Positions 45,386-61,774 of a stretch of 64,000 bases of DNA are shown in pieces. Source of the stretch: Arthrobacter koreensis (GTDB lineage: Bacteria > Actinomycetota > Actinomycetes > Actinomycetales > Micrococcaceae); contig NZ_WACG01000001.1 of NCBI RefSeq assembly GCF_009193255.1, forward strand, positions 1,364,001 through 1,428,000, given 5' to 3'. A program made the translations under genes and the position numbers. Every line of letters begins with the position of its first letter. The first letter of the stretch is position 1. The notes below the pieces were generated by a model. That model was given only the letters and a program-made list of their open reading frames with translations, was not told the DNA's origin and searched no databases.

Positions 45386-45877
45386 CTACGCGGTGAGCTG
45401 GCGCTTGGAGGAAATCACTCCCGTGTTGAAGCCCGCCAGGTTCAGGCCGCCGTGGAACCGGGCGTGTTCAATCTTCACGCACCGGTCCATCACCACGTTC
45501 AGGCCGGCCGCTTCGGCGTCCCGCGCCACGTCCTCATGCCAGGAACCGAGCTGCAGCCAGAGCGTCTTGGCGCCCACGGCCTTGGCTTCCTCCAGTACCG
45601 TCGGCAGGTCATCATGCCGGCGGAACACATCCACGATGTCCGGGGTCTCCGGCAGGTCCGCCAGCGAGGCGTACACCGGCTGGCCCAGGATTTCCTTCGC
45701 CACCGGGTTCACGAAGTACACCTTGTACGGCGAGGAGGAGAGCAGGTACGTTGCTACGAAGTAGGACGCGCGGGACGGCTTGTCCGAGGCCCCGACAATC
45801 GCGATTGACTTGGCCGAACGCAGCAGTGAAAGGCGTTCCGGGGCGCTGGGCCCCACCCAGGTGCGGTTCTCAGACAT
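45386..45877 (-). CDS. CoA-binding domain protein (YccU-like), metY-linked
   Basis: A 163-residue single Rossmann CoA-binding domain: AKSIAIVGASDKPSRASYFVATYLLS is the phosphate-binding loop, followed by VYFVNPVAKEILGQPVYASLADLPETPDIVDVFRR and a C-terminal VVMDRCVKIEHAR block with the family Cys. These small proteins bind CoA; their role is unknown. Its start overlaps the end of metY by 8 nt, so it is translated with metY. A second paralogue lies at 55356-55772 in the same sulfur island. Confidence 0.88.
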   Translation of the reverse strand: MSENRTWVGPSAPERLSLLRSAKSIAIVGASDKPSRASYFVATYLLSSSPYKVYFVNPVAKEILGQPVYASLADLPETPDIVDVFRRHDDLPTVLEEAKAVGAKTLWLQLGSWHEDVARDAEAAGLNVVMDRCVKIEHARFHGGLNLAGFNTGVISSKRQLTA

Positions 45878-47249
45878 TGGCTGACTCCTCGGTTTCAAGC
45901 GGGACACTGCAGGACGCAGCGTCTTCGGCAACGGGCACAGCATCTTCGGCAGCGGCTGCCGCACCAGCGCCGGCGGCCGTGAGCGCCTGGTCCAGGTCCC
46001 AGAGAATATCCTCCAGGTCCTCCAGGCCCACGGAGATGCGCACCAGGTCCTCCGGAACGCCGCCGGCCGCAAGCTGCTCCGGGGAGAGCTGCTGATGGGT
46101 GGTGGACGCCGGGTGGATGACCAGGGTCCGGGAATCACCAATGTTGGCCAGGTGGGAGGCGAGCTGCAGGGCCTCGATGAACGCCTGTCCGGCGGCACGG
46201 CCGCCCTTCACGCCGAAGCTGAACACGGAACCCGGACCCTTGGGCAGGTATTTCTTCGCCCGCTCATGGTGCGGATGGGATTCCAGGCCCGCGTAGGACA
46301 CCCAGGCCACGCGCTCATCTGCCTGCAGCCATTCGGCCACGGCCTGGGCGTTGCGCAGGTGCTCATCCACGCGCTGGGCCAGGGTCTCAACGCCCTGCAG
46401 CAGCTGGAACGCGGACTGGGCGGAGAGTGTGGGTCCGATGTCGCGCAGCTGTTCGGACCGCAGCTTGGTCAGGAACCCGTACTCGCCGAAGTTCCCCCAC
46501 CAGGAGATGTTGCCGTAGGACGGAACCGGTTCGGTCATGGCCGGGAATTTGCCGTTGCCCCAGTTGAAGGTGCCGGCTTCCACAACAACGCCGCCCAGGG
46601 TGGTGCCGTGCCCGCCGATGAACTTGGTGGCGGAGTGGATCACAATGTCCGCGCCGTGCTTGAACGGCTGCACCAGGTAGGGGGTGCTCAGGGTGGCGTC
46701 GAGAATCAGCGGCACACCGGCGTCGTGCGCCACCTTGGCCAGGCCCTCAATGTCCGTCACTTCGCCGCTGGGGTTGGCTACGACCTCTGCGTACACGGCC
46801 TTGGTGTTCTCCCGGATGGCCGCGGCGTAATCCGCCGGATTCGTGCCGGGGACGAAGGTGGTCTCGATGCCGAAGCGGCGCAGCGTCACGTCCAGCTGCG
46901 TGACCGTGCCGCCGTACAGCTGGGACGCGGCCACGATGTGGTCGCCGGCGGAGCAGATCGCCGCGAAGGTGACGAATTCCGCGGCCATGCCCGACGCCGT
47001 CGCCACCGCACCGATGCCTCCCTCCAGGGAAGCGATGCGCTCCTCGAACGCGGCGACCGTGGGGTTGCCGATCCGGGAGTAGATGTTGCCGTACTTCTGC
47101 AGCGAGAAGAGGTTCGCGGCGTCGGCGGTGTCGTTGAAGACGAAGGACGTCGACTGGTAGATGGGCACGGCGCGGGCACCGTGGATGGCGTCGGGCGTTC
47201 CCCCGGCGTGCAGGGCGCGGGTACGGAATCCGAACTGGCGGTCACTCAT
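45870..47249 (-). CDS. metY: O-acetylhomoserine sulfhydrylase (MetY-type)
   Basis: A 459-residue PLP enzyme of the Cys/Met metabolism family making homocysteine from O-acetylhomoserine and sulfide. Signatures: YSRIGNPTVAAFEERIASLEGG, SQLYGGTV, and the PLP lysine in HSATKFIGGHG (Lys209), followed by the MetY-specific FGEYGFLTKLRSEQLRDIG insertion. The last 35 residues form an Ala/Glu-rich tail with a Cys, not part of the family core. It heads a two-gene operon with a CoA-binding protein. No riboswitch fits in its short upstream gap. Confidence 0.93.
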   Translation of the reverse strand: MSDRQFGFRTRALHAGGTPDAIHGARAVPIYQSTSFVFNDTADAANLFSLQKYGNIYSRIGNPTVAAFEERIASLEGGIGAVATASGMAAEFVTFAAICSAGDHIVAASQLYGGTVTQLDVTLRRFGIETTFVPGTNPADYAAAIRENTKAVYAEVVANPSGEVTDIEGLAKVAHDAGVPLILDATLSTPYLVQPFKHGADIVIHSATKFIGGHGTTLGGVVVEAGTFNWGNGKFPAMTEPVPSYGNISWWGNFGEYGFLTKLRSEQLRDIGPTLSAQSAFQLLQGVETLAQRVDEHLRNAQAVAEWLQADERVAWVSYAGLESHPHHERAKKYLPKGPGSVFSFGVKGGRAAGQAFIEALQLASHLANIGDSRTLVIHPASTTHQQLSPEQLAAGGVPEDLVRISVGLEDLEDILWDLDQALTAAGAGAAAAAEDAVPVAEDAASCSVPLETEESANV

Positions 47250-47370
47250 GGACTGAGTGCTCCTTCCTTGGGGGAACCGCGGGTAAGCGGTTCGCCAATG
47301 GTTGCTTTATTGGGTGCTGGATACCAACAATGTTGAGGACAGTTGCGGCGAGGCAATCCTGGGAGCGGGC

Positions 47371-47643
47371 ATGGACGAGTACGTCATTGTGGTTGAAACC
47401 GGATACAAGCTGGCCTCCGCGAACCACAAGATCACCCCCACCGAACCGATGGAGCGCCTGGCCGCTGAGCGGATGTTCACCGAGATGATGGACGGCGGGC
47501 ACCCCGAACTGCTGCCGGAAAAGCACAACACGTCGTTCCTGGAGGTTTCTCCCGTGGAGTTCCTGCGCCTGCACCGCGCCATGGGCGGAGCGGTGGAGCT
47601 GGACCGGGTGACCCTGGCCCGGGTTCACGGAGCAGCGCACTAG
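47371..47643 (+). CDS. Small hypothetical protein between metY and acs
   Basis: A 90-residue soluble protein (MDEYVIVVETGYKLASANHKITP start) with a strand, several helices and a HNTSFLEVSPVEFLRLHRAMGG block. GGGAG five bases before ATG 47371 marks the start; an in-frame upstream TTG would add residues with no support. It is divergent from metY, convergent with and overlapping the acs stop by four bases. No family recognised. Confidence 0.65.
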   Translation: MDEYVIVVETGYKLASANHKITPTEPMERLAAERMFTEMMDGGHPELLPEKHNTSFLEVSPVEFLRLHRAMGGAVELDRVTLARVHGAAH

Positions 47644-49634
47644 GCTGCGCTCCCGCTCCGCCGCGCTTCGCAGGCGGCGTGGATCGCGGGAATGCAGGGT
47701 TCGTTCTGCAGGCTGGTGGTGTCCCCGAGCGTGGTGCCCTCGAAGAGCTGGGTGAGCAGGCGGCGCATGATCTTGCCCGAGCGAGTCTTGGGCACATCCG
47801 GAACCACGACGACGGCGGCGGGCTTGGCGATCGGCCCGATCTCCTTCGCGACGTGGGCCCGCAGCTGCGCGGTGACAGTTTCAGTATCCGGCGACGCGGA
47901 GTCGGTGAGCACCACGAACGCGGCGATGGCGTGACCGGTTTTGGGATCCGCGACGGGGCAGACCCCGGCTTCCACCACCCAGGGGTGGGAGACCAGTGCG
48001 GATTCGATTTCGATCGTGGAGAGCCGGTGCCCGGAGACGTTCAGGACGTCGTCCACCCGCCCCAGGATCCAGGTGTCGCCGTCGTCGTCATACCGTGCGC
48101 CGTCCCCGGCGAGGAACCAGCCCTGCTGCGCGTACTGCCGCCAGTAGGAGGAGAGGTAGCGCTGCGGATCTCCCCAGCAGGTCCGGGCCATGGACGGACC
48201 GGTCTTATCCACCACAATGAAGCCCTGTACGTTCGGGGGCACCTCGTTGCCGTGCTCGTCAACGATCCGGGTGGACACGCCGGGCAGGGCGCGGGAGGCG
48301 CAGCCGGGCTTGAAACTGGTGTCCGTCTGCCGCGGGGACAGGATGGTGGCACCGGTTTCGGACTGCCACCAGGTATCGATCACCGGAACCTCGCCGCGGC
48401 CGATGTTCTCCCGCATCCAACGCCAGGCTTCCGGGTTAACTGCTTCACCTACGGTGCCCAGCAGCCGGATGGAGGACAGGTCCCAGGTGTCCGGGACGCC
48501 GTCGGGGAACCAGCCCATGAGGGAGCGGACCAGGGTGGGGGCGGTGTAGTAGCTGGTGACCTGGTAGCGTTCGATGATTTCGAAGTGCCGGCCGGGATGC
48601 GGGGTGTTCGGTGTGCCCTCGAAGATCACCTGGGTGACGCCGTTGGAGAGCGGCCCGTAGATCTCATAGGTGTGGGCGGTGACCCAGGCCAGGTCCGCCG
48701 TGCACCAGTGGACGTCCGTGTCCCGGGCGGATTCGTCCGGATTGGCGAACAGGAACTCGTAGCTCCAGGACGCCTGCGTGAGGTAGCCGCCCATGGTGTG
48801 CACCAGGCCCTTGGGCTTTCCCGTGGTGCCGGAGGTGTACATGATGAACAGCGGCGTCTCGGCGTCGAATGCCTCCGGCTCGTGCACATCGGAGGCGGTG
48901 TCCACGGTCTCGTGCCACCAGAGATCCCGGCCCTCGGTCCAAGCGATCTCGGAGCCCGTGCGCCGGATGACCAGCACATGTTCAATCGCGTTGTCCCCGG
49001 AAACGGCCTCGTCCGCGTTGTCCTTGACCGGGACGGCGGCACCGCGCCGGAACTGGCCGTCCGTGGTGACCAGCAGCTTCGCGCGGGTGTTCTCCACCCG
49101 GAACTTCAGCGCCTCGGCCGAAAACCCACCGAAGACCAGCGAGTGGATGGCGCCGATCCGTGCACAGGCCAGGGTGATGATGATGGTTTCGGCGATGACG
49201 GGCAGGTAGATGACCACCCGGTCGCCCTTTTCGATCCCGAGGGCCAGCAGGGCATTGGCAGCCTTGGAGACTTCCTTCTGCAGCTGGGCGTAGGTGATGC
49301 TCCGGCGGTCACCCGGTTCGCCCTCGCAGTGCAGTGCCACTTTGTCCCCGCGCCCGGCGGCCACGTGGCGGTCCACGCAGTTCACCGCAACGTTGAGCCT
49401 GCCGCCGGCGAACCATTCGATCTCCGGCACGCTGTACTCGGCGTCGGCTTCCGGAACTTCCGGGCCGCTGAGCCGCTGCGGGGGAGTGAAGGTGTGGGCG
49501 GTGTGCCACGGCTGCTCCCACTGCAGCCGGCGGGCAGCGTCCTCCCAGAACGCGATCCGCTCTGCCTCGGAGGCGAAGTCCGGTTCGGCCGGTGTTCGGA
49601 GTGCTGTCCCTATGCCCACTTCTTCACTGCCCAC
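47640..49634 (-). CDS. acs: Acetyl-CoA synthetase
   Basis: A 664-residue AMP-forming acyl-CoA synthetase of the acetyl/propionyl type. ATP-binding core YTSGTTGKPKGLVHTMGGYL, W-pocket region WWQSETGA, hinge DVLNVSGHRLSTIEIESALVSHP, and the acetylatable lysine near the end in PKTRSGKIMRR are all present. Its GTG start lies 25 nt inside the end of the ABC permease gene, so it is translationally coupled to the sulfonate importer operon, an unusual position. Acetate, propionate or a small sulfonate-derived acid could be the substrate. Confidence 0.92.
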   Translation of the reverse strand: MGSEEVGIGTALRTPAEPDFASEAERIAFWEDAARRLQWEQPWHTAHTFTPPQRLSGPEVPEADAEYSVPEIEWFAGGRLNVAVNCVDRHVAAGRGDKVALHCEGEPGDRRSITYAQLQKEVSKAANALLALGIEKGDRVVIYLPVIAETIIITLACARIGAIHSLVFGGFSAEALKFRVENTRAKLLVTTDGQFRRGAAVPVKDNADEAVSGDNAIEHVLVIRRTGSEIAWTEGRDLWWHETVDTASDVHEPEAFDAETPLFIMYTSGTTGKPKGLVHTMGGYLTQASWSYEFLFANPDESARDTDVHWCTADLAWVTAHTYEIYGPLSNGVTQVIFEGTPNTPHPGRHFEIIERYQVTSYYTAPTLVRSLMGWFPDGVPDTWDLSSIRLLGTVGEAVNPEAWRWMRENIGRGEVPVIDTWWQSETGATILSPRQTDTSFKPGCASRALPGVSTRIVDEHGNEVPPNVQGFIVVDKTGPSMARTCWGDPQRYLSSYWRQYAQQGWFLAGDGARYDDDGDTWILGRVDDVLNVSGHRLSTIEIESALVSHPWVVEAGVCPVADPKTGHAIAAFVVLTDSASPDTETVTAQLRAHVAKEIGPIAKPAAVVVVPDVPKTRSGKIMRRLLTQLFEGTTLGDTTSLQNEPCIPAIHAACEARRSGSAA

Positions 49635-50467
49635 TTCTCTGCGACGCCCAGCAGGGCGTCAGTCGTCTTGCCCAGGACTGCCAGCAGCACGATCGCCAGG
49701 AACATCCGGTCCGTGCGGCCGTTGTTCTGCGAGTCGGTGAGCAGGAAGCCCAGTCCCATCGAGGAGGCGATGAGTTCCGCGGCCACCAGGAACAGCCAGG
49801 ACTGCGCCAGCGCCAGCCGCAGCCCGGAGAAGACAGCCGGAACGACGGCGGGCAGCTGCACCGTGGTGAGCAGCTTGATGCCGTTCAGCCCAAAGGCGCG
49901 GGCCGCTTCCACGAGGTTCTTGTCCACATGCCGCAGGGCGAGGGACACGGTGGTGAAGACCGGGAAGAACGCACCGATGGTGATCAGCGTGACCTTGGAG
50001 TCCTCGCCGATGCCCATCCAGAGGATCAGCAGCGGAACCAGCGCCAGGGACGGCACAGCACGCACGGCGCCGAACAGCGGGCCGAGCAGGACGTCGGCCA
50101 GTTTCGACAGGCCCAGCAGGGCGCCGAGGACCAGGCCCAGGACCGCACCGAGCGCGAACCCGGTGAGGACGCGCTGGGTGGAGATGGCGATGTGCGTGCC
50201 CAGCTCGCCGCGCTCAATCAGGTCCGCTGCAGAGGTCAGTACGGCGCCCGGAGAGGGCAGCTGCACGGCACTGAACAGGCCCAGGACGGACACCAGCTGC
50301 CAGAGCCCCAGCAGCAGGACCGGAACCACCAGGCCCAGGACCACGCGGGCCCAGGTCCGGGACAGCACGCCGCCGGAGCCGGCCTTCCGGGAAGGTACCG
50401 GCGCCGCGGACGCCCCGAACGGGCCTGCCGTTACGGGTGCTGCAGCGGGGGGAGGGGTGGTGCTCAT
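49610..50467 (-). CDS. ssuC: ABC transporter permease, SsuC-type (aliphatic sulfonate/taurine)
   Basis: A 285-residue inner-membrane permease of the nitrate/sulfonate/taurine family. A Pro/Ala-rich cytoplasmic N-terminus of about 35 residues precedes six membrane helices; the EAA-type coupling loop reads VEAARAFGLNGIKLLTTVQLPAVVPAVFSGLRLAL. Its start overlaps the stop of the binding-protein gene (TGATG). Sulfonate rather than nitrate is inferred from the SAM riboswitch upstream of the operon and the sulfur genes around it. Confidence 0.88.
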   Translation of the reverse strand: MSTTPPPAAAPVTAGPFGASAAPVPSRKAGSGGVLSRTWARVVLGLVVPVLLLGLWQLVSVLGLFSAVQLPSPGAVLTSAADLIERGELGTHIAISTQRVLTGFALGAVLGLVLGALLGLSKLADVLLGPLFGAVRAVPSLALVPLLILWMGIGEDSKVTLITIGAFFPVFTTVSLALRHVDKNLVEAARAFGLNGIKLLTTVQLPAVVPAVFSGLRLALAQSWLFLVAAELIASSMGLGFLLTDSQNNGRTDRMFLAIVLLAVLGKTTDALLGVAEKWAVKKWA

Positions 50468-51534
50468 CAGGAGTCCTTGATGTTTTCCGCGTTGGCGTTC
50501 TGCACGAAGCTGTCATCCAGCAGGGAGGCCACGGCGTCGTCGATCGCCTTCTGGTTGGCGACGTCGCCGGTTTCGACGAAGACCGGGCCAACCTTTTCCA
50601 GGACCGTGCGCTGGGCGTCGCCCGGGGCGGGGTCCACGTCCAGGTTGCTGCGTTCCAGGATCACGGTGCGGGCTACCTCCAGGTCCAGGCCGGCGACGTC
50701 GGCGAGGATCTGGGCGGTTTCCTCGGGGTTCTCGGCAGCCCAGGCGCGGGCCTTCTCGTAGGCGTCCACAACCGTCTGCGCCAGTTCCGGCTTGTCCTCG
50801 AGGAAGGACTCGGTGGCGTTCAGGAAGCCGTAGGTGTTGAAGTCCAGGTTCCGGTAGAGGAACTTCGCCCCGGCCTGCTCGGCGCCGGCCATGATCGGGT
50901 CCAGGCCTGACCAGGCATCCACCGAACCGTTCTCGAGGGCGGTGCGGCCGTCAGCGTGCTGCAGGTTCTCCACCGTCACGTCGGAGGTGCTCAGGCCGGC
51001 CTCTTCCAGGGCCTGGACCAGGAAGAAGTACGGGTCCGTACCCTTGGTGGCGGCCACGGACTTGCCGGCCAGGTCCGCCACGGAGGTGATGTCCGAGTCG
51101 GGTGAGACGAGGAGCCCGGCCCATTCCGGCTGCGAGTAGATGCTGATGGTCTTGATCGGCGATCCGTTGGAGCGGGCCAGCAGGGCTGCCGAACCGGCGG
51201 TGGAGCCGACGTCGATCGCTCCGGCCCGCAGGGCCTCGTTGGCCTTGTTGGAACCGGCGGACTGCACCCAGTTGACCTCCACGCCCTGCTCTTCGAGGGT
51301 GGCTTCGAGCCAGCCCTGGTCCTTGATCACCAGGCTGAGCGGGTTGTACGTGGCGAAGTCGATGTTCAGGGTGCCGCCGTCGGCTGCCTCATTGGCGGCA
51401 GCGCCGGAGGAATCCTCGCCGGCAACGCAGCCGGTCAGGGCCAGCGAAACCGCGGCGGCGGTGGCTGCCAGTGCGGTGAGGGGGCGGCGGGAGAAGCGGG
51501 GCGGGCGGCGGGAGAAGAGGGAACGGCTGTTCAT
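50467..51534 (-). CDS. ssuA: ABC transporter substrate-binding lipoprotein, SsuA-type
   Basis: A 355-residue lipoprotein: basic N-terminus, hydrophobic segment (ALAATAAAVSLALTG) and lipobox LALTGC with Cys36 the lipid-modified residue. The mature part shows the aliphatic-sulfonate-binding family blocks NIDFATYNPLSLVIKDQGWLE, QSAGSNKANEALRAGAIDVGSTAGSAAL and AATKGTDPYFFLVQALEEAGL. It should capture alkanesulfonates outside the membrane. AAGGAA precedes ATG 51534. Middle gene of ssuBAC-acs. Confidence 0.9.
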   Translation of the reverse strand: MNSRSLFSRRPPRFSRRPLTALAATAAAVSLALTGCVAGEDSSGAAANEAADGGTLNIDFATYNPLSLVIKDQGWLEATLEEQGVEVNWVQSAGSNKANEALRAGAIDVGSTAGSAALLARSNGSPIKTISIYSQPEWAGLLVSPDSDITSVADLAGKSVAATKGTDPYFFLVQALEEAGLSTSDVTVENLQHADGRTALENGSVDAWSGLDPIMAGAEQAGAKFLYRNLDFNTYGFLNATESFLEDKPELAQTVVDAYEKARAWAAENPEETAQILADVAGLDLEVARTVILERSNLDVDPAPGDAQRTVLEKVGPVFVETGDVANQKAIDDAVASLLDDSFVQNANAENIKDS

Positions 51535-51647
51535 GGGGATTCCTTCGAGACGGGTGGTGCGGGAAAAATTCAGGGAAAACCGGGGTGCAGGCACAAAGGT
51601 GCTGCGGCTTGGCCCGGCAGGACGCCGGGACCGGGTGGAAAGGGGCC

Positions 51648-52475
51648 CTAGTGGCGGTCGACGCCGAGGCTCGCCAGGAGCTCGCCGCGCATTCGGGCAA
51701 GCTCGGCAGAGGCACGGTCCCGGGGGCGGGCACCGGGCACGGTGATGGTCTGCGTGATGGTGGCGCCGGGTTTGCCCGGTTCGCGGCCCAGCACGATGAT
51801 CCGGTCAGCCAGCTGGAGGGCTTCATCGACGTCGTGCGTGACCAGCAGGACGGTTGCCGGAGCCGCGCGGTGCACGTCCAGCAGCAGGTCCTGCATCTTC
51901 AGCCGGGTCAGGGCATCGAGGGCGCCGAACGGTTCATCCAGCAGCAGGACGCCGGGTTTGCGGGCCAGGGCGCGGGCCAGCGACGCCCGCTGGGCCATGC
52001 CGCCGGACACCGCGCGGGGCTGGTGCTTGGCGAAGCTGTCCAGCTCCACCAGCTTCAGCAGTTCGGAAACCTTGGCCTTGCCTTCGCTGGCGCTGGTGCC
52101 CTTCGGCAGGCCAATCGCAACGTTGGCCTGCAGGGTCTGCCACGGCAGCAGCCGGGGCTCCTGGAATGCGACGGCGCAGCGGTCGTCGATGCCGTGGACA
52201 GCGGTTCCGTCGATGAGCACCTGGCCGGTGGAAGCGGCGTCGAGCCCTGCGGTGGCGCGGAGCAGCGTGGATTTGCCGCAGCCGCTGGAGCCCAGGATCG
52301 CCAGGACTTCACCGGGACGGACTTCAAAGTTGATGTCGCGGAGCACCACGTGGGCGTCTGCGCCGGAGCCGAAGCTGCGGCCAACGCCGTCGAACGTCAC
52401 GGACAGGGCGGTGTCCGGTGCGGTGCGCGCAGCAGCGGACACGGCGTGGGACCCAGAGGACAGTACAGCAGTCAT
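51648..52475 (-). CDS. ssuB: ABC transporter ATP-binding protein, SsuB-type
   Basis: A 275-residue ATPase: Walker A GSSGCGKST (62-70), Q-loop AVAFQEPRLLPWQTL, signature VSGGMAQR, Walker B LLLDEPFGALD and H-loop VTHDVDEAL. It energises sulfonate uptake with SsuA and SsuC. The start is ATG 52475 with GGAG six bases upstream; this Shine-Dalgarno overlaps the 3' strand of the P1 helix of a predicted SAM riboswitch, so SAM binding should block translation. First gene of the operon. Confidence 0.92.
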   Translation of the reverse strand: MTAVLSSGSHAVSAAARTAPDTALSVTFDGVGRSFGSGADAHVVLRDINFEVRPGEVLAILGSSGCGKSTLLRATAGLDAASTGQVLIDGTAVHGIDDRCAVAFQEPRLLPWQTLQANVAIGLPKGTSASEGKAKVSELLKLVELDSFAKHQPRAVSGGMAQRASLARALARKPGVLLLDEPFGALDALTRLKMQDLLLDVHRAAPATVLLVTHDVDEALQLADRIIVLGREPGKPGATITQTITVPGARPRDRASAELARMRGELLASLGVDRH

Positions 52476-52483
52476 TGAACACT

Positions 52484-52639
52484 CCATCGGTCCTGGCAGT
52501 AGCACCCTACGGAAAACGTCCTGCCGAAAACCGGCCTCCTGCGACGTCCACCTCGCTATCGCAGTGCCTCAAGGAGGAAGCACTACGACCAGGGTTGCTG
52601 CGGCTTCACTGATCCAGGTCTCTCAGCCGCTCGGGATGG
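52484..52639 (-). promoter_or_regulatory. SAM-I (S-box) riboswitch controlling ssuB
   Basis: Read on the minus strand, P1 CCATC (52639-52635) pairs with GATGG (52488-52484). Inside are the S-box landmarks GAGCGGCTGAGAGACCTGG, GTGAAGCCGCAGCAACC and GGTGCTACTGCCAGGACC. A long extra helical insert sits before the GGTGCTA strand, making it about 57 nt longer than the second copy upstream of metN. The P1 3' strand overlaps the ssuB ribosome site. Confidence 0.9.
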
Positions 52640-52713
52640 TCAAGACCCAACTAAACGCCCTGGAGCCTGTTTCCGGCAAGTCCCGGCGTAACATTTCGAA
52701 TCCCGCTCCTTTT

Positions 52714-52777
52714 CCATCGAGATAGCAGAAACTGCACGTTACAACGCTGAAACGGGCAGTTTCTGTCATCTCGATGG
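52714..52777. repeat. 64-nt hairpin repeat, copy B
   Basis: Arms 52714-52735 and 52756-52777 pair at 20 of 22 positions around a 20-nt loop. Same 22/20/22 layout as copy A at 45301-45364. It lies between the two divergent SAM riboswitches. Confidence 0.8.
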
Positions 52778-52872: not shown

Positions 52873-52952
52873 GGATCATGAGTCCCAACGCGAAGCTCTG
52901 GCTGGTTGGGCGGCAACCCTCTCCCGTAGCGGGGTGCCCCAGATGACGATCC
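52873..52952 (+). promoter_or_regulatory. SAM-IV-type riboswitch before flavin monooxygenase gene
   Basis: P1 GGATC (52873-52877) pairs with GATCC (52948-52952). The conserved SAM-IV landmarks follow in order: CATGAGTCCCAACG, a hairpin arm, TTGGGCGGCAACCCTC, then GCGGGGTGCCCCAGATGA. The 60-nt tail before the start codon contains GC-rich segments that could sequester the ribosome site. The class call rests on recalled consensus only. Confidence 0.85.
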
Positions 52953-53022
52953 GGTCGACCGGCAAGACCGCCGGCGGCAAGTACGGCGCCCCTGCGCGGC
53001 GTCCCGCATGCAAAGGACCCTC

Positions 53023-54417: not shown

Positions 54418-54497
54418 GAGTCCGGGGCGGCCATTGACCGGGTTCCCCGGCGCTCCTACCGTTGAGGGACCCGCAGCTTCCAGCTAAGGAGAACCCC

Positions 54498-55271
54498 ATG
54501 GATCCATCTGCCGAAGCCTCAGGACGTGTGCTTTCCGCCGACGGAACGCCGATTGCCTGGCAACGGCAGGGAGAAGGCCCGCCGCTGGTGGTGGTGGACC
54601 CCGTGATGGTGGACCGGACCACCTCGGGGATGGCCGGTGTTGCCGAACTGCTGGCCGCCGGGCACACCGTCTACACCTATGACCGCCGAGGCAAGGGTGA
54701 GAGCGGGGACGGGGAACAGTACACCCCCGAATCCGAGGTAGACGACCTGCTGGCGGTGGTGGAGACCGCGGGCGGAACGGCGGCCCTGCTGGGAACCTCC
54801 TCCGGCGCGGTCCTGGCGCTGCGGGCCGCCTCGGAGTCCGCCGTCATTTCGAGCGTGATCGCCGTGGAGCCGCCGCTCACCGAAGACAGTGACGAGGACC
54901 CGGACATCCGCCCCGAACTGGATGAGCTGCTGGCGGCAGGTGACCGGGCCGGTGCCGTACGGCTGTTCCAGGAGTCCATCGGGGTGCCGCCGGAGATGAT
55001 CGAGTCTTCGGACACCAGTCCGTTCGAGCCGGCCGCGCACACCATCTCCTATGACCTGACCCTGCTGCTGGAAACCGATGTGCGGTCCCTGACTGGTATC
55101 CGCGTTCCGGTCCTGGTGCTGGCGAGTTCCGGAAGCGATGACAGGCTGCGCGAATGGGCGCGGGAAACCGCCGAGCTGCTGCCGGAAGGTTCTTTCCAGC
55201 TGCTGGAGGGGAGCTGGCACGGGCTTGATGACCGGATCCTGGCCACCGCCGTCGAGGCGTTCCTGAACTAA
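54498..55271 (+). CDS. Alpha/beta hydrolase (sulfur island)
   Basis: A 257-residue single-domain hydrolase. VYTYDRRGKGES is the oxyanion strand, GTSSGA the nucleophile elbow (Ser), PVLVLASSGSDDRLRE carries the acid, and LLEGSWHGLDD the catalytic His. It could hydrolyse an ester or thioester produced by the preceding monooxygenase, but this is only inferred from position. AAGGAGAACCCC precedes the start. It begins 80 nt after the monooxygenase and is on the same strand, so it may be under the same riboswitch. Confidence 0.82.
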   Translation: MDPSAEASGRVLSADGTPIAWQRQGEGPPLVVVDPVMVDRTTSGMAGVAELLAAGHTVYTYDRRGKGESGDGEQYTPESEVDDLLAVVETAGGTAALLGTSSGAVLALRAASESAVISSVIAVEPPLTEDSDEDPDIRPELDELLAAGDRAGAVRLFQESIGVPPEMIESSDTSPFEPAAHTISYDLTLLLETDVRSLTGIRVPVLVLASSGSDDRLREWARETAELLPEGSFQLLEGSWHGLDDRILATAVEAFLN

Positions 55272-55355
55272 AGGCGGCTGGAATAGGCCCGGTGCCGGGT
55301 GCGTTTTCCCCTGAGCGTAGGGTGGGAATCCTGCATCGACTCAAGGAGGTACCGC

Positions 55356-55772
55356 ATGGCGCACCGCAACGATCCCGAGGTCGTTACCCGGCTGCTCACG
55401 TCCAAAGGCCGCTGGGCGGTAGTGGGCCTCTCAAACAACCCGGCCCGCCCCGCCGTGGGGGTTTCACGGTTTGTCCGGGACTCCCTGGGCATGGAGATCA
55501 TTCCCGTGAACCTGTCCGGCCAGGCCTTCGACGGCCAGCAGGGTTTCCGGAAACTGGAGGAGATCCCCGGCCAGGTGGACGTTGTGGACTGCTTCGTGAA
55601 CTCTGCCAGGGTGGGGGACGTCGTGGACCAGGCCATCGCGGTAGGCGCCAAGGCCGTCTGGCTGCAGCTGGGAGTGGTGGATGAAGACGCCGCGAGGCGT
55701 GCCGTGAACGCCGGGCTCGACGTCGTCATGAATACCTGCCCGGTCATTGAAGCCGGGCGTTTCGGGCTCTAG
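55356..55772 (+). CDS. CoA-binding domain protein (YccU-like), second copy
   Basis: A 138-residue Rossmann CoA-binding protein: RWAVVGLSNNPARPAVGVSRFVRDSLG, IIPVNLSGQAFDGQQGFRKLEEIPGQVDVVDCFVNS, AKAVWLQLGVVDEDAARRAVNAGLDVVMNTCPVIEAGR. It is a distant paralogue of the metY-linked protein at 45386-45877 and shares the VWLQLG and VVMxxCxxIE blocks. A very good ribosome site (AAGGAGG) precedes ATG 55356. The role is unknown. Confidence 0.88.
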   Translation: MAHRNDPEVVTRLLTSKGRWAVVGLSNNPARPAVGVSRFVRDSLGMEIIPVNLSGQAFDGQQGFRKLEEIPGQVDVVDCFVNSARVGDVVDQAIAVGAKAVWLQLGVVDEDAARRAVNAGLDVVMNTCPVIEAGRFGL

Positions 55773-55793
55773 CGGCGGAGCGCCGCGCGAAAC

Positions 55794-56345
55794 CTAGTTC
55801 CGCAGGTCCACACGCAGGGAGCGGTGCGTCTTCCAGGCCTGGAGCATCTGGTCCCTGGTGCCGCCGGGATGCGCTGCATGCCAGTCCCGCGAGAAGCGGT
55901 TCAACTCGAATTGCCGGCCGATCGGCCGTGCCGCAGTATCCCGGGTGGCGTGCCAGTGATCCAGCGCAGCGGCCAGCGTGGCGGTGCCGTCATTGGCGGC
56001 GAAGAACTCCCGCATGGGCGCATCGAAGCTGAATCCGGGGCCCAGGGCATTGACGAAGAATTCCCGCAGCACCTGGGTGCAGGGATGTCCCGCCGGAATA
56101 ACGGTGTGGATGGTCAGCGGCGGAACCAGACGCTCCCGGGAGGAACGGGGACGGGCTTCCAGGGGAGGAAGCGGTGCGCCGCCCAGGAATGCGGCTATCC
56201 GTTCGGTGAGCTGGTCCTTCGAACCGGCAGCGGATAGTTCCTGCGCGCGGGCGAATGCCTGCAGCTCATCCTTGAGCCAGTACCAGCGGCGGAATTCCTC
56301 CGGCCCAAGCGAAGGGGCGAGGGCGGGGCGTTCCGTAGCTGTCAC
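55794..56345 (-). CDS. SAP-like/DUF6434 domain protein
   Basis: A 183-residue protein. Its N-terminal third (EEFRRWYWLKDELQAFARAQELSAAGSKDQLTERIAAFLGG) reads as a SAP-type helix-extended-loop-helix, a possible nucleic-acid-binding motif; the C-terminal third (ALDHWHATRDTAARPIGRQFELNRFSRDWHAAHP) matches the DUF6434 pattern. GTG 56345 has GGGAGGA seven bases upstream. It interrupts the sulfur island on the opposite strand and may be unrelated to it. Confidence 0.65.
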   Translation of the reverse strand: MTATERPALAPSLGPEEFRRWYWLKDELQAFARAQELSAAGSKDQLTERIAAFLGGAPLPPLEARPRSSRERLVPPLTIHTVIPAGHPCTQVLREFFVNALGPGFSFDAPMREFFAANDGTATLAAALDHWHATRDTAARPIGRQFELNRFSRDWHAAHPGGTRDQMLQAWKTHRSLRVDLRN

Positions 56346-56558
56346 GTTCCCATCCTCCCGGACAGGCCGGAGAATCGGTGCTCCCGCGCCGGGCCCGGGC
56401 CAAGTGATTTCAGAGCTTCGGTGCGGGATGGCGCAGGACGCCGGAAGACGTAACAAAACCGATTGTGACGCCGGAGCACGTTACGCGCCGACGCATTGGG
56501 CCGCACGGGGAAATGTTCTGGCCCTACCGGGGTACGCGCGGCTTAGATAGTTCCGTAA

Positions 56559-56657
56559 CCATCCAGAGCGGCTGAGAGACCTGGCTCCGTGACGCCGCAG
56601 CAACCCCCTTCCGCGGGCAATCCCGCCGAAGCAGGGTGCTACCGCCAGGACCGATGG
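56559..56657 (+). promoter_or_regulatory. SAM-I (S-box) riboswitch controlling metN
   Basis: P1 CCATC (56559-56563) pairs with GATGG (56653-56657). Core landmarks: GAGCGGCTGAGAGACCTGG, GTGACGCCGCAGCAACC and GGTGCTACCGCCAGGACC. It is nearly identical in core to the copy before ssuB but 57 nt shorter. About 100 nt of expression platform separate it from the metN ribosome site. Confidence 0.92.
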
Positions 56658-56764
56658 AGAAGCACCTGCTCTTATCCGGTCCGTGTTCCCGTGCCCTGAG
56701 GCCCGGGTCCCGTTCCTTCCCGCAGCGTGCACCTCTTCCCGGGCTTAGACCGCAGGAGGACAGC

Positions 56765-57553
56765 ATGATCCGGATTGAAAACGTCTCTACCGTCTTCGGA
56801 GGCGGTGAATCGGCCTTTACCGCAGTGGACAACGTCAGCCTGGCCATTCCCAGGGGAAGCATCCAGGGCATCATCGGGTTCTCCGGGGCCGGCAAGTCCA
56901 CCCTGCTGCGCAACATCAACCTGCTGGAACGGCCCAGCGCCGGCCGGGTACTGGTGGACGGCACGGACCTCACCCAATTGGGGGACGGTGAGCTGCGTGC
57001 CGCACGGCATGAGATCGGCATGATCTTCCAGCACTTCAACCTGCTGAACAACCGCACCGCGGCGCAGAACGTTGAGCTCTCGCTGAAGTTCGCCGGAGTG
57101 AAGAGTGCCGCTGAGCGGCGCGCCCGGGCACTGGAGGCGCTCGCCGTCGTCGACCTTTCGGAGAAGGCCGGAACCTACCCGGCGAAACTTTCCGGCGGGC
57201 AGAAGCAGCGCGTCGCCATTGCCCGCGCCCTGGCCACCCGCCCCAAGGTGCTGCTCTGCGACGAACCGACCTCCGCCGTCGATCCGCGCACCACCGCCTC
57301 CGTGCTGCAGTACCTCAGTGATGTGAACGCCCGTTTCGGCATCACGATCGTGGTGGTGACCCATGAAATGAATGTCATCAAGGCCATCGCGGACAACGTG
57401 GCCGTCATGGAGGAAGGCCGCGTGGTGGAGCAGTTCGCGCTCGCGGAACTCTCCCGTCCCGGCTTTACTCCGGCCACGGCGATCGGCCGGTACCTGATCT
57501 CGGATGAGATCACCCTGGACCGCGCTGCCCGGGAAGGAGCCCGCGTTGCTTGA
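56765..57553 (+). CDS. metN: Methionine ABC transporter ATP-binding protein, short form
   Basis: A 262-residue ATPase of the MetN family: IRIENVSTVF start, Walker A GFSGAGKST (38-46), Q-loop IGMIFQHFNLLNNRTAAQNV, signature LSGGQKQR, CDEPTSAVD and VVVTHEMNVI. Typical MetN proteins are about 340 residues with a C-terminal NIL domain that senses methionine; here the protein ends soon after the ATPase core, so that regulatory domain is absent. GGAGGA precedes ATG. Controlled by the S-box riboswitch. Confidence 0.93.
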   Translation: MIRIENVSTVFGGGESAFTAVDNVSLAIPRGSIQGIIGFSGAGKSTLLRNINLLERPSAGRVLVDGTDLTQLGDGELRAARHEIGMIFQHFNLLNNRTAAQNVELSLKFAGVKSAAERRARALEALAVVDLSEKAGTYPAKLSGGQKQRVAIARALATRPKVLLCDEPTSAVDPRTTASVLQYLSDVNARFGITIVVVTHEMNVIKAIADNVAVMEEGRVVEQFALAELSRPGFTPATAIGRYLISDEITLDRAAREGARVA

Positions 57554-58211
57554 GCGCATTGCCGAAGTGTGGCCGGAACTGCTCGCCGCCCTGGGCCAGA
57601 CCGGCACCATGCTGCTGGTGGCCATTCCCCTTGCGGTGCTGATCGGCACCCCGCTGGGGGTTCTCCTGTACGCCCTCGGCCCGGACGGACTGGCACACAA
57701 GCCCAGGCTCCACCGGATCCTGGACTCGCTGGTGAACCTGGTGCGGTCCTTTCCGTTCCTGATCCTGCTGATCGCCATCATCCCGTTTACCCGGTTCGTG
57801 GTGGGAACCACCATCGGAACGGCAGCCGTGATCGTGCCGCTGACCATCAACGCCATTCCCTACTTCGCCCGGTTCGTGGAACAGAACCTCACCGCGCTCG
57901 GCGGAGGAGTGGTGGAAGCCGCCCGCTCCATGGGCGCCACCCGCGGGCAGATCGTGCGGGACGTCCTGCTGGTCGAAGCCCGTCCGGCGCTGATCAGCTC
58001 CATCACCATCATGACGGTCAGCTTCATTTCCTACTCCGCGATGGCAGGCCTGGTGGGCGGCGGCGGAATCGGCGACTTCGCCATCCGCTACGGCTACTAC
58101 CGCTATGAGACCGGGCTGATGCTCACCGCCATCGTGCTGATGGTCCTGCTGGTCCAGGCCGTGCAGCTGGGCGGCTCCTGGCTCTCCCGCCGCGCCGACA
58201 AGCGACTCTAG
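57546..58211 (+). CDS. metI: Methionine ABC transporter permease
   Basis: A 221-residue permease with five helices typical of MetI: NLVRSFPFLILLIAIIPFTRFVVGTTIGTAAVIVPLTINAIPYFARFVE and the coupling loop VEAARSMGATRGQIVRDVLLVEARPALI. TTG 57546 overlaps metN by 8 nt and has GGAAGGAG six bases upstream, so it is coupled to metN. The matching binding protein lies three genes downstream. Confidence 0.93.
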   Translation: MLERIAEVWPELLAALGQTGTMLLVAIPLAVLIGTPLGVLLYALGPDGLAHKPRLHRILDSLVNLVRSFPFLILLIAIIPFTRFVVGTTIGTAAVIVPLTINAIPYFARFVEQNLTALGGGVVEAARSMGATRGQIVRDVLLVEARPALISSITIMTVSFISYSAMAGLVGGGGIGDFAIRYGYYRYETGLMLTAIVLMVLLVQAVQLGGSWLSRRADKRL

Positions 58212-58238
58212 CCTTCCCATTCCTACCGAAAGAACCCC

Positions 58239-59654
58239 ATGAGCACTCCCAGTACCCGCTTCAACGGGCCGCGTCCGCGCCTGCTGCTGAACGCCTTCCT
58301 GATGAACACCACCAGCCACATCCGCGGCGGGCAGTGGCGCCACCCGGACGCCGAACAGCACCGCTTTAACGAGCTGTCCTTCTGGACGGACCTGGCCCGC
58401 CGGCTCGAAGACGCGAAATTCGACGCCCTGTTCTTCGCCGACGTCGTGGGCCTGTACGGCAACCACGACGGCGGCTGGGCCTCCCACGTGCGCCGCGGCC
58501 TGCAGGTGCCGGCCAACGATCCGCTGCTGCTGCTTGCCGCCCTCTCCGGTGCCACCAGCAACATTGGGCTCGCAGCGACGTCGTCCGTGGTGCAGAGCCA
58601 CCCCTTCCACTTCGCCCGGCAGCTCTCCACGCTGGACCATCTCTCGGGCGGCCGGGCCGGCTGGAACATCGTCACGTCCGTACTGGAGAACGCGCACCGC
58701 AACTTCGGCGGGGACGGCCTCACCGAACACGACCGGCGCTATGACTGGGCGGACGAATACACCGACGCCGTCTACAAGCTCTGGGAAGGGTCCTGGGACG
58801 AGGGCGCGCTCATCCAGGACAAGGACGCCGGGGTGCACGCGGACCCGGACAAGGTCCACAAGATCCACCACCGCGGCGAACGCTACTCCATTGACGGGCC
58901 GCACCTGAGCTCACCGTCCCCGCAGCGCACCCCGGTGCTCTTCCAGGCCGGCAGCTCCGGGCGCGGTCAGCAGTTCGCTGCCGCCAACGCCGAAGCAACC
59001 TTCATCTTTGCGCCCAACCCGGCCCATGCCGCGAAGGTAGCCGCCGGAGTCCGGGCCCGTGCCGTGGAAGCCGGGCGGCTCCCGGATGACATCAAGGTGT
59101 TCACCGGCCTGTCCTTCGTGGTGGGCGGAACCGAGGCGGAAGCGCAGCGGAAAAAAGCCGAACAGGATGAATACCTGGACCTGGACGCGGTCATCGCCCA
59201 CATTGGCGGCGGGCTGGGCATCGACCTCGGCGGTCTGGACCTGGACACCCCGCTGGGAGACGTGCAGACCGAAGGCGGGCGCGGCGTGCTGCAGGCCATC
59301 ATCGACTCCACCCCGGGCGGCAACCCCACCCTGGCGGACGTCGCCCGCTACCGCACCGAGGCCCAGCAGGTCACCGGCACCCCGGAACAGATCGCCGACG
59401 AACTTGAACGCTGGCAGGATGCCGGCGTGGACGGCATCAACATCATCAACGCCGTCCTGCCCGGCTCCTACACGGACTTCATCGACGGGGTGCTGCCCGA
59501 ACTGCGCCGCCGGGGCCTGGCCCAAAGCGACTACGCCCCGGGCACGCTGCGGGAGAAGCTTTTCGGTGCCGGCCCGCTGCTGAACGAACGCCACCGTGCC
59601 GCCGCATTCCGCGGAGCCTTCACGAACACCCTTGCAACGTCAGGAGCCAACTGA
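58239..59654 (+). CDS. NtaA/DszA-family FMN-dependent monooxygenase, second copy
   Basis: A 471-residue luciferase-like monooxygenase paralogous to 53023-54417. It shares RHPDAEQHRFNELSFWTDLARRLEDAKFDALFFADVVGLYG, FARQLSTLDHLSGGRAGWNIVTSVLENAHRNFG and SPSPQRTPVLFQAGSSGRG. It should oxidise an organosulfur substrate with FMNH2. It starts 27 nt after metI, so it is in the S-box-controlled metNI transcript, and its stop overlaps the next start (TGATG). Confidence 0.92.
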   Translation: MSTPSTRFNGPRPRLLLNAFLMNTTSHIRGGQWRHPDAEQHRFNELSFWTDLARRLEDAKFDALFFADVVGLYGNHDGGWASHVRRGLQVPANDPLLLLAALSGATSNIGLAATSSVVQSHPFHFARQLSTLDHLSGGRAGWNIVTSVLENAHRNFGGDGLTEHDRRYDWADEYTDAVYKLWEGSWDEGALIQDKDAGVHADPDKVHKIHHRGERYSIDGPHLSSPSPQRTPVLFQAGSSGRGQQFAAANAEATFIFAPNPAHAAKVAAGVRARAVEAGRLPDDIKVFTGLSFVVGGTEAEAQRKKAEQDEYLDLDAVIAHIGGGLGIDLGGLDLDTPLGDVQTEGGRGVLQAIIDSTPGGNPTLADVARYRTEAQQVTGTPEQIADELERWQDAGVDGINIINAVLPGSYTDFIDGVLPELRRRGLAQSDYAPGTLREKLFGAGPLLNERHRAAAFRGAFTNTLATSGAN

Positions 59655-60868
59655 TGACCGCCAGCCTGCTGACCCGTTACGGCCATACCCCGGCCCCGGA
59701 GGCCGTCCGCTGGTTTGAGATCGCCGACGAGGTCGCCGCAATCCTCGGCGCGGACGCCCTGGAACGCGACGCCGCCAATAAGCCGCCGTTCACGGAAGTC
59801 GAAATCCTCCGCCGGTCCGGGCTGCTGCCGCTGACCATTCCGGCCCGCTTCGGCGGTGCCGGAATCAGCTGGAGCACCGCGTTCGAGATTGTGCAGCGGG
59901 TGGCGCGGGCGGACAACTCGATTGGCCAGCTGCTGGGCTACCACTACATTTTCCAGGCCTTCCCCTGCATCGACCTCGATCCGGCGCGGGGACAGGACCT
60001 CGCGGACGAGTGCCTGATCCACCAGTGGCTCTGGTCCTCCACCGGCACGCCCCAGGGTCCCCAGGCCACCGCCGTCCGCACCCGAGGCGGCTACCGGGTG
60101 ACCGGCAGGAAACCGTTTGCAACCGGCAGCCGGGTGGCGGACAGGATTTACGCGAGGGCAGTGCTCGACGACGGCTCCCGGCTGGCGCTGGTCATCGACA
60201 CCGCCTCGGAGGGCGTGGTGCGCCACGATGACTGGGACGTTCTCGGTTCCCGCCTCACAGCCACCAACACCATCGAGTTCCGGGACGTGTTCGTGCCGGA
60301 CTCCGAGGTGATCACCAACCTGGGAACGCATGACGGCGAACGCCTCCCGCACCAGGTCCTGACCACACCCGCGTTCCAGCTGCTCTTCGCCCACGCCTAC
60401 CTCGCTGCCGCGGAAGGAGCGGTCCTCGCCGCCCGGGATTACACCCTCGGCTCCGCCCGGCCGTGGTACCACGCGGAGGTTGAATCGGCGTCGGACGATC
60501 CGTTTATCCAGAACCACTACGGATCCTTCACCGCGAGGCTCCAGGCGCTGGCCGCCGTCGTCGAGCAGGCCACCACCGCCCTGCAGTGGGCGTTCGACGC
60601 CGGGGACTCGCTCACCGCCGCGGACCGGGCCGGAGTCGCCGAGCAGATCGCCGCGGCGAAGGTCACCGCCCACGAGGTGTCGCTCGATGTCACGGCGCGG
60701 ATCTTCGACGTCACCGGTGCCCGGGCGGCCGGAAGCAAATACGGGTTCGACAGATACTGGCGGGACGTCCGCACCCACACCCTGCATGACCCCGTTGCCT
60801 GGAAATACAACGAACTGGGCCGGTTCTTCCTGAACGGGACCGAACCGGTTCCCTCCGCCTACCGCTAA
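59654..60868 (+). CDS. Acyl-CoA dehydrogenase-fold flavin monooxygenase (SfnB/DszC-like)
   Basis: A 404-residue protein of the acyl-CoA dehydrogenase fold. LRRSGLLPLTIPARFGGAGISWSTAFEIVQRVARADNSIGQLLGYHY and GGYRVTGRKPFATGSRVADRIYARAVLDDGSRLALVIDT are domain hallmarks; the C-terminal helices contain VTARIFDVTGARAAGSKYGFDRYWRDVRTHTLHDP, as in FMNH2-dependent DszC and the SfnB sulfur-acquisition group rather than true acyl-CoA dehydrogenases. It is coupled to the monooxygenase and likely works on the same organosulfur compound. Confidence 0.88.
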   Translation: MTASLLTRYGHTPAPEAVRWFEIADEVAAILGADALERDAANKPPFTEVEILRRSGLLPLTIPARFGGAGISWSTAFEIVQRVARADNSIGQLLGYHYIFQAFPCIDLDPARGQDLADECLIHQWLWSSTGTPQGPQATAVRTRGGYRVTGRKPFATGSRVADRIYARAVLDDGSRLALVIDTASEGVVRHDDWDVLGSRLTATNTIEFRDVFVPDSEVITNLGTHDGERLPHQVLTTPAFQLLFAHAYLAAAEGAVLAARDYTLGSARPWYHAEVESASDDPFIQNHYGSFTARLQALAAVVEQATTALQWAFDAGDSLTAADRAGVAEQIAAAKVTAHEVSLDVTARIFDVTGARAAGSKYGFDRYWRDVRTHTLHDPVAWKYNELGRFFLNGTEPVPSAYR

Positions 60869-60898
60869 ACACACTCGCACTTCTTCGAAGGAATACCC

Positions 60899-61774
60899 AT
60901 GGAACGCAGGAACTTTCTCAAACTCGCACTTGCCGGTGCCGGAACCGCTTCACTGGCCGCTGCCACTGGCTGCGGCCTGACCGGCGGGGCATCGGCGTCG
61001 GGCGACAAGACCATCAAGATCATTGCCACCGAATCGGCGCCCTACCAGGAGCCCACCAAAATCGCCGCCGAGCTGCTCAAGGCCAAGGGATGGACGCTGG
61101 AAGCCACCTACGTCACGGACATCATCCAGCCGAACCTCGCGGTTTCAAACGGCGAATTCGATGCCAACTACTTCCAGCACGGCGCGTACCTGCAGCAGTT
61201 CAACGTGGACCAGAAGCTCGAAGTGCAGCCGCTGTTCTACGTTTACGGTTCGCCGGCCGGGATCTGGTCCAAGCGCTACTCCAGCCTGCAGGACCTGCCC
61301 GACGGCGCCAGGATCGCCCTGCCGGTGGACCCGGCTAACAACGGGCGCGGGCTGGTGCTGCTGCGTGACGCCGGGTTGTTGGAACTCAAGGACGGAGTGG
61401 GCGTGATCCACACGTCACAGGAAAGCATCACGGCGAACCCGAAGAACTTCGAGTTCGTTGAGGTTGACCAGCAGTCCCTGTCCAAGACGCTGCCTGACGT
61501 GGACGCCGGGTTCCTGTTCGTGCGGCTGGCTGCGGAGATCGGCCTGTTCCCGGATGACGCGCTGGCCTTTGAGAAGGAAGCGGACCAGATTCCGTTCCGC
61601 TGCGTGGTGGCCGGAACGGCGGCATTCGCCGACTCCGAGAAGGCGCGTGCGCTGCAGGAGGCGTACCAGTCACCCGAAGTCCGGGAGTGGTTCGCCGGTT
61701 ACCTGGACGGTGTACTGCCCACTCCCTGGGACGCGGATCCGCTGGAGGAACTCGACTCCTGGTGGCAGGCCTAG
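60899..61774 (+). CDS. metQ: Methionine/organosulfur-binding lipoprotein (MetQ/NlpA family)
   Basis: A 291-residue lipoprotein of the NlpA/MetQ family. The N-terminus has a twin-arginine-like motif (RRNFLKLAL) and lipobox AAATGC with Cys25. Mature blocks: KIIATESAPYQEPTKIAAELLKAKGW, LAVSNGEFDANYFQHGAYLQQFN, YSSLQDLPDGARIALPVDPANNGRGLVLLRDAGLLELK. It supplies MetNI with substrate; being encoded after two monooxygenases, the ligand may be a methionine derivative or another sulfur compound. Last gene of the operon; its stop shares CTAG with the convergent gene. Confidence 0.92.
   Translation: MERRNFLKLALAGAGTASLAAATGCGLTGGASASGDKTIKIIATESAPYQEPTKIAAELLKAKGWTLEATYVTDIIQPNLAVSNGEFDANYFQHGAYLQQFNVDQKLEVQPLFYVYGSPAGIWSKRYSSLQDLPDGARIALPVDPANNGRGLVLLRDAGLLELKDGVGVIHTSQESITANPKNFEFVEVDQQSLSKTLPDVDAGFLFVRLAAEIGLFPDDALAFEKEADQIPFRCVVAGTAAFADSEKARALQEAYQSPEVREWFAGYLDGVLPTPWDADPLEELDSWWQA

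Follow-up and report, generated by a model that had tools for sequence, protein, structure and literature searches.

In a 64,000-nucleotide (nt) stretch of the Arthrobacter koreensis genome (assembly GCF_009193255.1, contig NZ_WACG01000001.1, positions 1,364,001 to 1,428,000), hereafter the window, positions 45386 to 61774 hold an island of genes for organosulfur import and oxidation, in which three RNA leaders are predicted to sense S-adenosylmethionine (SAM). From comparison of sequences, we estimate at roughly 0.72 the probability that this island belongs to an organosulfur-scavenging regulon found across the family Micrococcaceae, in which each operon has a SAM-sensing RNA leader of its own. 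An earlier note on the window had proposed a sulfur-acquisition island under three SAM riboswitches of two classes; as an observation this is confirmed as a whole, and its interpretation is partly supported: the two aptamer classes, the three leaders and the organosulfur genes behind each of them hold, and the switching-on of import, oxidative desulfurization and capture of sulfide by MetY at low SAM is a prediction. The three elements are, in window coordinates:

52874-52989, plus strand: SAM-IV aptamer, leader of the NtaA1 gene (RF00634, 92.2 bits, cut-off 38)
56556-56660, plus strand: SAM-I (S-box) aptamer without P4, leader of the metN-like operon (RF00162, 53.1 bits, cut-off 44.4)
52481-52642, minus strand: SAM-I (S-box) aptamer with a long P3 and no P4, leader of the ssu operon (RF00162, 39.5 bits, below 44.4; 71.8 bits with model R1)

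All three lie within 3 nt of where they had been placed, except that the SAM-IV element is a full-length match (model positions 1-116 of 116) and ends at 52989 rather than 52952. The Infernal/Rfam check proposed in the earlier note, under which a span without a hit above threshold would count against the claim, puts the SAM-IV element and the plus-strand S-box above their cut-offs and leaves one of the three, the minus-strand S-box (52642-52481), short of it, with an E-value of 5.9e-6 for 20 kb under relaxed thresholds. Rfam probably loses this element because its P3 carries about 75 extra nt. It is held to be real nevertheless, since model R1, built from 28 aligned S-boxes (27 of the 30 relatives' loci L016-L045 plus the plus-strand element of the window) with the minus-strand element excluded, gives it 71.8 bits (E 4e-17 in 463,538 bases), and its core columns are those of the family. 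Across the 3.55-Mb genome only these two S-boxes exceed noise, the next match reaching 14.4 bits (E 5). The alignment of the 28 S-boxes has 96.2% of its structure cells paired; four of five measures of structure beat all of 500 shuffles, the fifth (further pair types) being reached by 40 of the 500, and every measure exceeds slid controls. The pseudoknot CUGG/CCAG is made of standard pairs in 28/28, as are P2a and P2b, and the split P2 sets these elements apart from the SAM-I/IV variants (RF01725), which have a P2 without internal loop; the Rfam scan reports only the best family of a clan, and RF01725 carries no separate score. The three RNAs are predicted SAM-binding switches.

The comparison was extended to 81 S-boxes of the family (79 distinct), of which 67 come from the window and 20 regions of about 20 kb and 14 from 9 of 79 named loci; several of these named entries probably duplicate assemblies of the G series, and two elements (L065:1039 and L143:7511, 39 bits) were ended too early by the search. 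In 81/81, only 2-6 nt separate the pseudoknot strand from P1, which leaves no room for P4, and the family element is for this reason called a P4-less SAM-I variant. The core columns, which we take to be the SAM contacts of a solved SAM-I structure (A6, U7, G11, the AA of GCAACC and the UGC of GGUGC), are kept in 79 to 81 of the 81, being invariant or deviating once; an A-to-C change at column 10 occurs in 21/81. S-boxes from the class Actinomycetes, by comparison, carry 16-27 nt in the P4 position (29/29 measured). Among 296 genomes sampled from the class, an S-box reaches E 1e-5 in 201, and only 9 of these have more than one. The 30 best loci all lie outside the Micrococcaceae, and in 30/30 the S-box is followed by a threonine synthase match at 65-100% identity (the match in L233 begins inside the gene, and the threonine synthase profile was run on one locus). 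In these loci (L231-L260) the usually single S-box sits, in a compact leader, ahead of a threonine-synthase-like gene, an arrangement that may place the threonine branch point under SAM control.

Within the Micrococcaceae, 122 of the 149 genomes sampled have S-boxes with E-values no higher than 0.001 (112 of them over the cut-off), model R1 finds S-boxes in 28 of the 29 genomes of the genus, and SAM-IV elements are present in 148/149. The wiring, which the earlier note had regarded as unusual, is thus common across the family and not a one-off. The family S-boxes are often clustered and stand before ATP-binding cassette (ABC) importers, NtaA-type monooxygenases, SfnB-like enzymes or MetY. When the first open reading frames (ORFs) after the 81 S-boxes are clustered, with labels resting on one or two members each, they comprise 32 ABC ATPases (MetN- or SsuB-like), 14 SfnB-like proteins, 13 binding proteins whose best NCBIfam match, TIGR04028, is below its cut-off, 9 acetate-coenzyme A (CoA)-ligase-like proteins, 9 NtaA-type proteins and four unclustered products (a flavin reductase, one resembling MetY with 78% identity to the island MetY, an ABC permease and one mis-called ORF); the counts from the 67 S-boxes are biased because most of those regions were chosen for their clusters. 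When one best locus is taken per genome from 30 genomes, the first gene matched is of an organosulfur type in 30/30 (10 MetN/SsuB ATPases, 7 NtaA1, 7 binding proteins, 3 MetY, 2 SfnB-like and 1 acetate-CoA-ligase-like), and in the own genus this holds for 26/27 loci (two at 27% identity only), one being unmatched. These 30 and 27 loci are best-scoring rather than random, and the seeds were these gene types plus threonine synthase, so that a gene unlike every seed would be skipped. Organosulfur genes likewise stand behind each of the three leaders of the window, as had been claimed, and the arrangement is kept in relatives: the closest named contig found, from A. citreus DSM 20133 (94% identity to NtaA2 over residues 1-471), carries the same two S-boxes and the SAM-IV element. 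Two family-type S-boxes also occur in a contig titled Rhodococcus sp. Leaf278 (L123, 11454-11547 and 19854-19947), by name outside the Micrococcaceae, which points either to transfer or to a mislabelled record.

The relationship between the two aptamer classes can be followed on NtaA1-type genes, 90 of which were examined among 113 rows (30 loci and 60 more, the 23 left out being among the weakest). Within 350 nt upstream, 41 have a SAM-I element, 15 a SAM-IV element and 34 neither, this last number being an upper bound on the lack of control because L301-L360 include no more than about 700 nt of upstream sequence. On the NtaA1 protein tree SAM-IV requires three changes, at least two of which are forced by well-supported branches, with SAM-I groups lying between; one well-supported clade of 14 genes holds nine with SAM-IV (six from the own genus and three from others), four with SAM-I and one with neither. 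Because the two classes are interleaved in this way, the sensor class has been exchanged while the predicted SAM control stayed, and because relatives share the wiring with either sensor type on the same gene, it is SAM control as such that appears to be under selection. Mixing of the classes within one island is not common, since among 52 sources (the window, the 20 regions and 31 of the 79 named loci) the five strong SAM-IV matches fall in only 4, with one weak match in 1 other; to this extent the two-class island is unusual, as the earlier note had it, although the back-to-back arrangement of a SAM-I leader and a SAM-IV-led NtaA gene is found at three loci in the own genus and at five in two other genera, g3 and g6 (L355, L356, L357, L358 and L360). 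It could be argued that SAM-IV and SAM-I came together by chance recombination of leaders and that their meeting signifies only a shared ligand. The clustering of aptamer class on the tree and the ability of leaders to move with their genes would fit such a history, but the recurrence of the divergent pair, including in G103 (L360) a gene behind the divergent S-box that is SsuB-like (61%), and the retention of the ligand class whichever aptamer is used, make it rather unlikely. A broader proposal goes beyond the regulon reading, namely that the Micrococcaceae run sulfur starvation largely through RNA, that a minimal, P4-less SAM-I with the P1 strand as ribosome-binding site has spread across a series of organosulfur operons, that SAM-I and SAM-IV were swapped more than once at one and the same orthologous gene and that selection keeps the SAM input rather than any one RNA; this we put forward tentatively, with slightly more doubt than belief.

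The ssu operon extends from the minus-strand S-box as follows (all minus strand):

51648-52475: SsuB-like ABC ATPase (NF008420, 202 bits, below the equivalog cut-off of 395; run on 51648-52505)
50467-51594: SsuA-family substrate-binding protein (TIGR01728, 222 bits, cut-off 163.5)
49610-50467: SsuC-like permease (NF008470, 182 bits, below the cut-off of 347; PF00528)
47640-49634: acetate-CoA-ligase-like paralogue (TIGR02188, 786 bits, cut-off 725)
47242-47640: ORF of 132 amino acids (aa) overlapping both neighbours, without Pfam or NCBIfam match
45870-47249: MetY, O-acetylhomoserine sulfhydrylase family (TIGR01326, 599 bits, subfamily cut-off 495; PF01053)
45386-45877: CoA_binding_2 protein (PF13380, 141 bits), with an in-frame ATG at 45877 that overlaps the metY stop

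If each ORF is read from its earliest possible start, these genes are separated by one gap of 53 nt and otherwise overlap, and they are for this reason most likely a single S-box operon. The acetate-CoA-ligase paralogue, absent from the earlier note, has a stronger AcsA counterpart elsewhere in the genome (C5:726655, 947 bits), and similar genes head S-box operons in relatives (9/81).

On the plus strand, the SAM-IV aptamer ends 33 nt before the start codon of NtaA1, a flavin mononucleotide (FMN)-dependent monooxygenase, and the metN-like operon follows the second S-box:

53012-53017, plus strand: AAAGGA, likely Shine-Dalgarno sequence of NtaA1
53023-54417, plus strand: NtaA1, NtaA/DmoA-family FMN-dependent monooxygenase (TIGR03860, 565 bits, subfamily cut-off 280, run on 53008-54417; PF00296)
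54462-55271, plus strand: alpha/beta hydrolase, 44 nt past NtaA1 (PF12697, 63 bits)
56754-56759, plus strand: AGGAGG, likely Shine-Dalgarno sequence of the MetN-like gene, about 95 nt past the aptamer
56765-57553, plus strand: MetN-like ATPase without NIL domain (TIGR02314, 300 bits, cut-off 500, run on 56636-57553; no PF09383)
57504-58211, plus strand: MetI-like permease (NF008049, 195 bits, cut-off 212; PF00528)
58239-59654, plus strand: NtaA2, NtaA/DmoA-family monooxygenase (TIGR03860, 511 bits, subfamily cut-off 280)
59654-60868, plus strand: SfnB/DszC-like flavoenzyme with acyl-CoA dehydrogenase fold (DszC 285 bits, cut-off 850; SfnB 257, cut-off 431; Pfam acyl-CoA_dh domains)
60899-61774, plus strand: MetQ/NlpA-like lipoprotein (PF03180, 185 bits; MetQ subfamily 128 bits, cut-off 374)

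The gene content claimed earlier is thus recovered by Pfam and NCBIfam, with SsuA, MetY and the two NtaA/DmoA monooxygenases placed in their families and the SsuB, SsuC, SfnB/DszC, MetN, MetI and MetQ assignments reduced to "-like"; two minus-strand ORFs without sulfur annotation, at 55268-56456 and absent from the earlier note, split the island. The label "metNI...metQ" for the transporter does not hold up in the same way. The ATPase lacks the NIL domain and the curated cut-offs for MetN and MetQ are missed, whereas a MetN that does have NIL lies elsewhere in the genome (C6) behind a SAM-IV element, and the island transporter is accordingly better read as a MetNIQ relative, at most a putative importer of methionine. 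The same evidence bears on the view that the island serves mainly to salvage methionine or its derivatives, with a MetNIQ-like system importing methionine, its sulfoxide or thioethers and the oxygenases as accessories. Proteins resembling MetQ, MetN and MetI do follow an S-box, and for methionine import SAM is the obvious signal; against this view, the NIL-bearing MetN with its MetQ is found elsewhere, the MetN-like set of the island brackets two oxygenases, and neither the ssu operon nor the S-box-led SfnB-like genes of relatives belong to methionine salvage, so that we regard it as unlikely.

For the ssu operon, the regulon reading gains a plausible switch. The relevant feature is:

52482-52485, minus strand: terminal GGAG of the P1 3' strand (P1 CCATC/GATGG), likely Shine-Dalgarno sequence of ssuB

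This GGAG ends 6 nt before the ssuB ATG (52475-52473). In 47/81 S-boxes (33 ATG, 8 GTG and 6 TTG), an ORF of 150 or more codons starts 4-17 nt past the P1 GATGG/AATGG, compared with 14 of 108 other GATGGAG sites at the same loci, and in these 47 the P1 3' strand is likely the ribosome-binding site. Formation of P1, whose 3' strand would itself be the Shine-Dalgarno sequence, would directly occlude the ribosome-binding site. There is no surplus of terminator-like sites (3 found against 8.9 expected), which agrees with translational control and does not show it. For the SAM-IV leader, a pairing of CAUGAG/CUCAUG with the start region, noticed by eye, was dropped as an expression platform, being absent from the three other leaders inspected in the same genome. 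That the minus-strand S-box is a relic that no longer binds SAM, leaving ssu to a transcription factor as in Corynebacterium, where passages of PMC2580772 have ssu genes answering to SsuR, CysR and McbR, is very unlikely and not supported, for although it has the low Rfam score and the P3 insert described above and a G.A mismatch in P2b that is present in every one of the eight rows aligned (the window plus seven homologues, of which two probably share a genome), its core is kept in all eight, one of them otherwise diverged, and matches the family core columns, the A-to-C change at column 10 occurs in 21/81, and a Shine-Dalgarno sequence is located at its P1.

Several observations weigh against the regulon reading or against parts of it. 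The minus-strand S-box scores under the Rfam cut-off, and the MetN-, MetQ-, SfnB- and DszC-like proteins fall under their curated cut-offs. The scan of the operon proteins found no SsuD (TIGR03565), against whose cut-off of 518 NtaA1 and NtaA2 score 81 and 57, and the acetate-CoA-ligase paralogue (47640-49634) has no evident part in sulfur scavenging. Among NtaA1-type genes, the 34 of 90 without a SAM aptamer within 350 nt also count here, although 7 of them have, some 1.4 kb upstream and in the same orientation, an S-box cut by the edge of the locus, as do the 2 of 6 SAM-IV matches in the own genome that precede genes without a known sulfur role. The longer leaders provide a further difficulty. 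In 25 of the 26 scored, the state with P1 disrupted has the lower computed energy, in a model to which ligand and pseudoknot are external, but the accessibility of the Shine-Dalgarno sequence rises in some of the 26 and falls in others, and in the metN-like leader of the window the probability that it is unpaired is 0.40 with P1 forced and 0.11 without, which is the wrong direction. Because the folding results are mixed overall and of the wrong sign in this leader, a switch between P1 and no-P1 states was dropped and no mechanism is claimed for long leaders; judged by eye only, the partner of the P1 3' strand in the no-P1 state could be a downstream GGUCC or the anti-Shine-Dalgarno strand.

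The remaining intergenic feature does not appear to take part in control:

52714-52777, no strand assigned: palindrome of 64 bp lying between the two divergent leaders, one copy of a repeat dispersed in the genome

It has 73 matches in the genome counting both strands, or roughly 40 copies, lies at the same place in A. citreus and was not seen in the corresponding stretch of L046. As a dispersed repeat it was rejected as an operator, and it is probably no part of the switch.

Six SAM-IV matches over the cut-off, two of them divergent, are present in the own genome, and besides NtaA1 their targets include MetY, MetQ with the NIL-bearing MetN, and a flavin reductase. At the last of these (L008, 1501-3065), the SAM-IV element leads genes for a flavin reductase and a PhzF-family protein, and the reductase may be a source of reduced FMN (FMNH2) for the island monooxygenases. 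The two divergent elements are a SAM-IV-like match of 63.9 bits with altered core on the minus strand of L010 (1501-1627; C9:199989-200115), before a short ORF and also a 131-aa ORF without NCBIfam match, and one of 49.5 bits in L011 (1501-1634; C5:658196-658329), before a 128-aa ORF without Pfam match; the L010 element could be a variant with another ligand.

Taken as a regulon, the island would work as follows. When SAM is plentiful, each leader would fold around it. In the ssu operon, whose switch has the sequence, geometry and recurrence given above, the formation of P1 would bury the Shine-Dalgarno sequence (GAUGG-AG, the P1 3' strand) 6 nt before the ssuB ATG, while the metN-like operon would respond through its longer leader and NtaA1 through its SAM-IV aptamer. 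When SAM is low, repression would be relieved, and importers and FMN-dependent monooxygenases would be made. Sulfur would then be released from sulfonate- or thioether/sulfone-like compounds, with reduced flavin possibly supplied by the flavin reductase encoded elsewhere in the genome and itself SAM-IV-led, and MetY would fix sulfide or methanethiol into homocysteine or methionine. We infer all of these steps, from SAM binding and repression by SAM to the substrates, capture by MetY and FMNH2 supply. If the scheme is true, SAM riboswitches extend from methionine supply to the scavenging of sulfonates, sulfones or thioethers, and each operon of a regulon has its own direct sensor. Orthologous genes with the same input and different aptamer classes would represent a natural experiment, and the P4-less S-box, provided it does bind SAM, would be smaller than the SAM-I elements usually studied and would provide a compact translational switch in which P1 is the ribosome-binding site.

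The RNAs and proteins of the island are of known kinds. As far as our literature search shows, the content of the regulon, the P4-less S-box with its Shine-Dalgarno sequence at P1 and the exchange of aptamer classes on orthologs are new, and no Micrococcaceae precedent was found among the matches listed in open-licence PubMed Central literature. In the S-box regulon of Bacillus, the aptamer core, the P2 internal loop, P3 and the pseudoknot between the P2 loop and J3/4 are combined with control in cis of methionine and sulfur genes. The family elements share the core, the split P2, P3, the pseudoknot and, as predicted, control in cis; they differ in having no room for P4, in targets devoted to organosulfur import and oxidation, and in the position of P1 at the Shine-Dalgarno sequence in 47/81. 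Compared with other S-boxes of the Actinomycetes, both types have compact leaders with a start codon shortly after the aptamer, but those of the class are usually single, stand in the 30 best loci before a threonine-synthase-like gene and, where measured, have space for P4. With respect to SAM-IV (RF00634), the window element is full-length, and its target is an NtaA-type monooxygenase. The SAM-I/IV variants (RF01725) share traits of both families and have no P2 internal loop, according to passages of PMC2864571, and in passages of PMC6890682 they are described with P4 and without the pseudoknot PK-1, whereas the family S-boxes have a split P2 and PK-1 and no P4. The same passages of PMC6890682 describe SAM-IV as lacking P4 relative to SAM-I, so that on this description the family S-box shares the absence of P4 with SAM-IV while keeping the P2 fold and PK-1 of SAM-I. 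A leader before an alkanesulfonate transporter operon is mentioned for bacilli in passages of PMC2965389, which do not call it a SAM riboswitch. Finally, in Corynebacterium glutamicum, McbR, whose effector is S-adenosylhomocysteine, controls metY and acts together with SsuR on a sulfonate monooxygenase gene, with CysR also in the network (passages of PMC2580772). As far as these passages go, the logic is the same, with a metabolite of the SAM cycle as input, but it is exerted there by protein repressors and activators and here, as predicted, by RNA aptamers.

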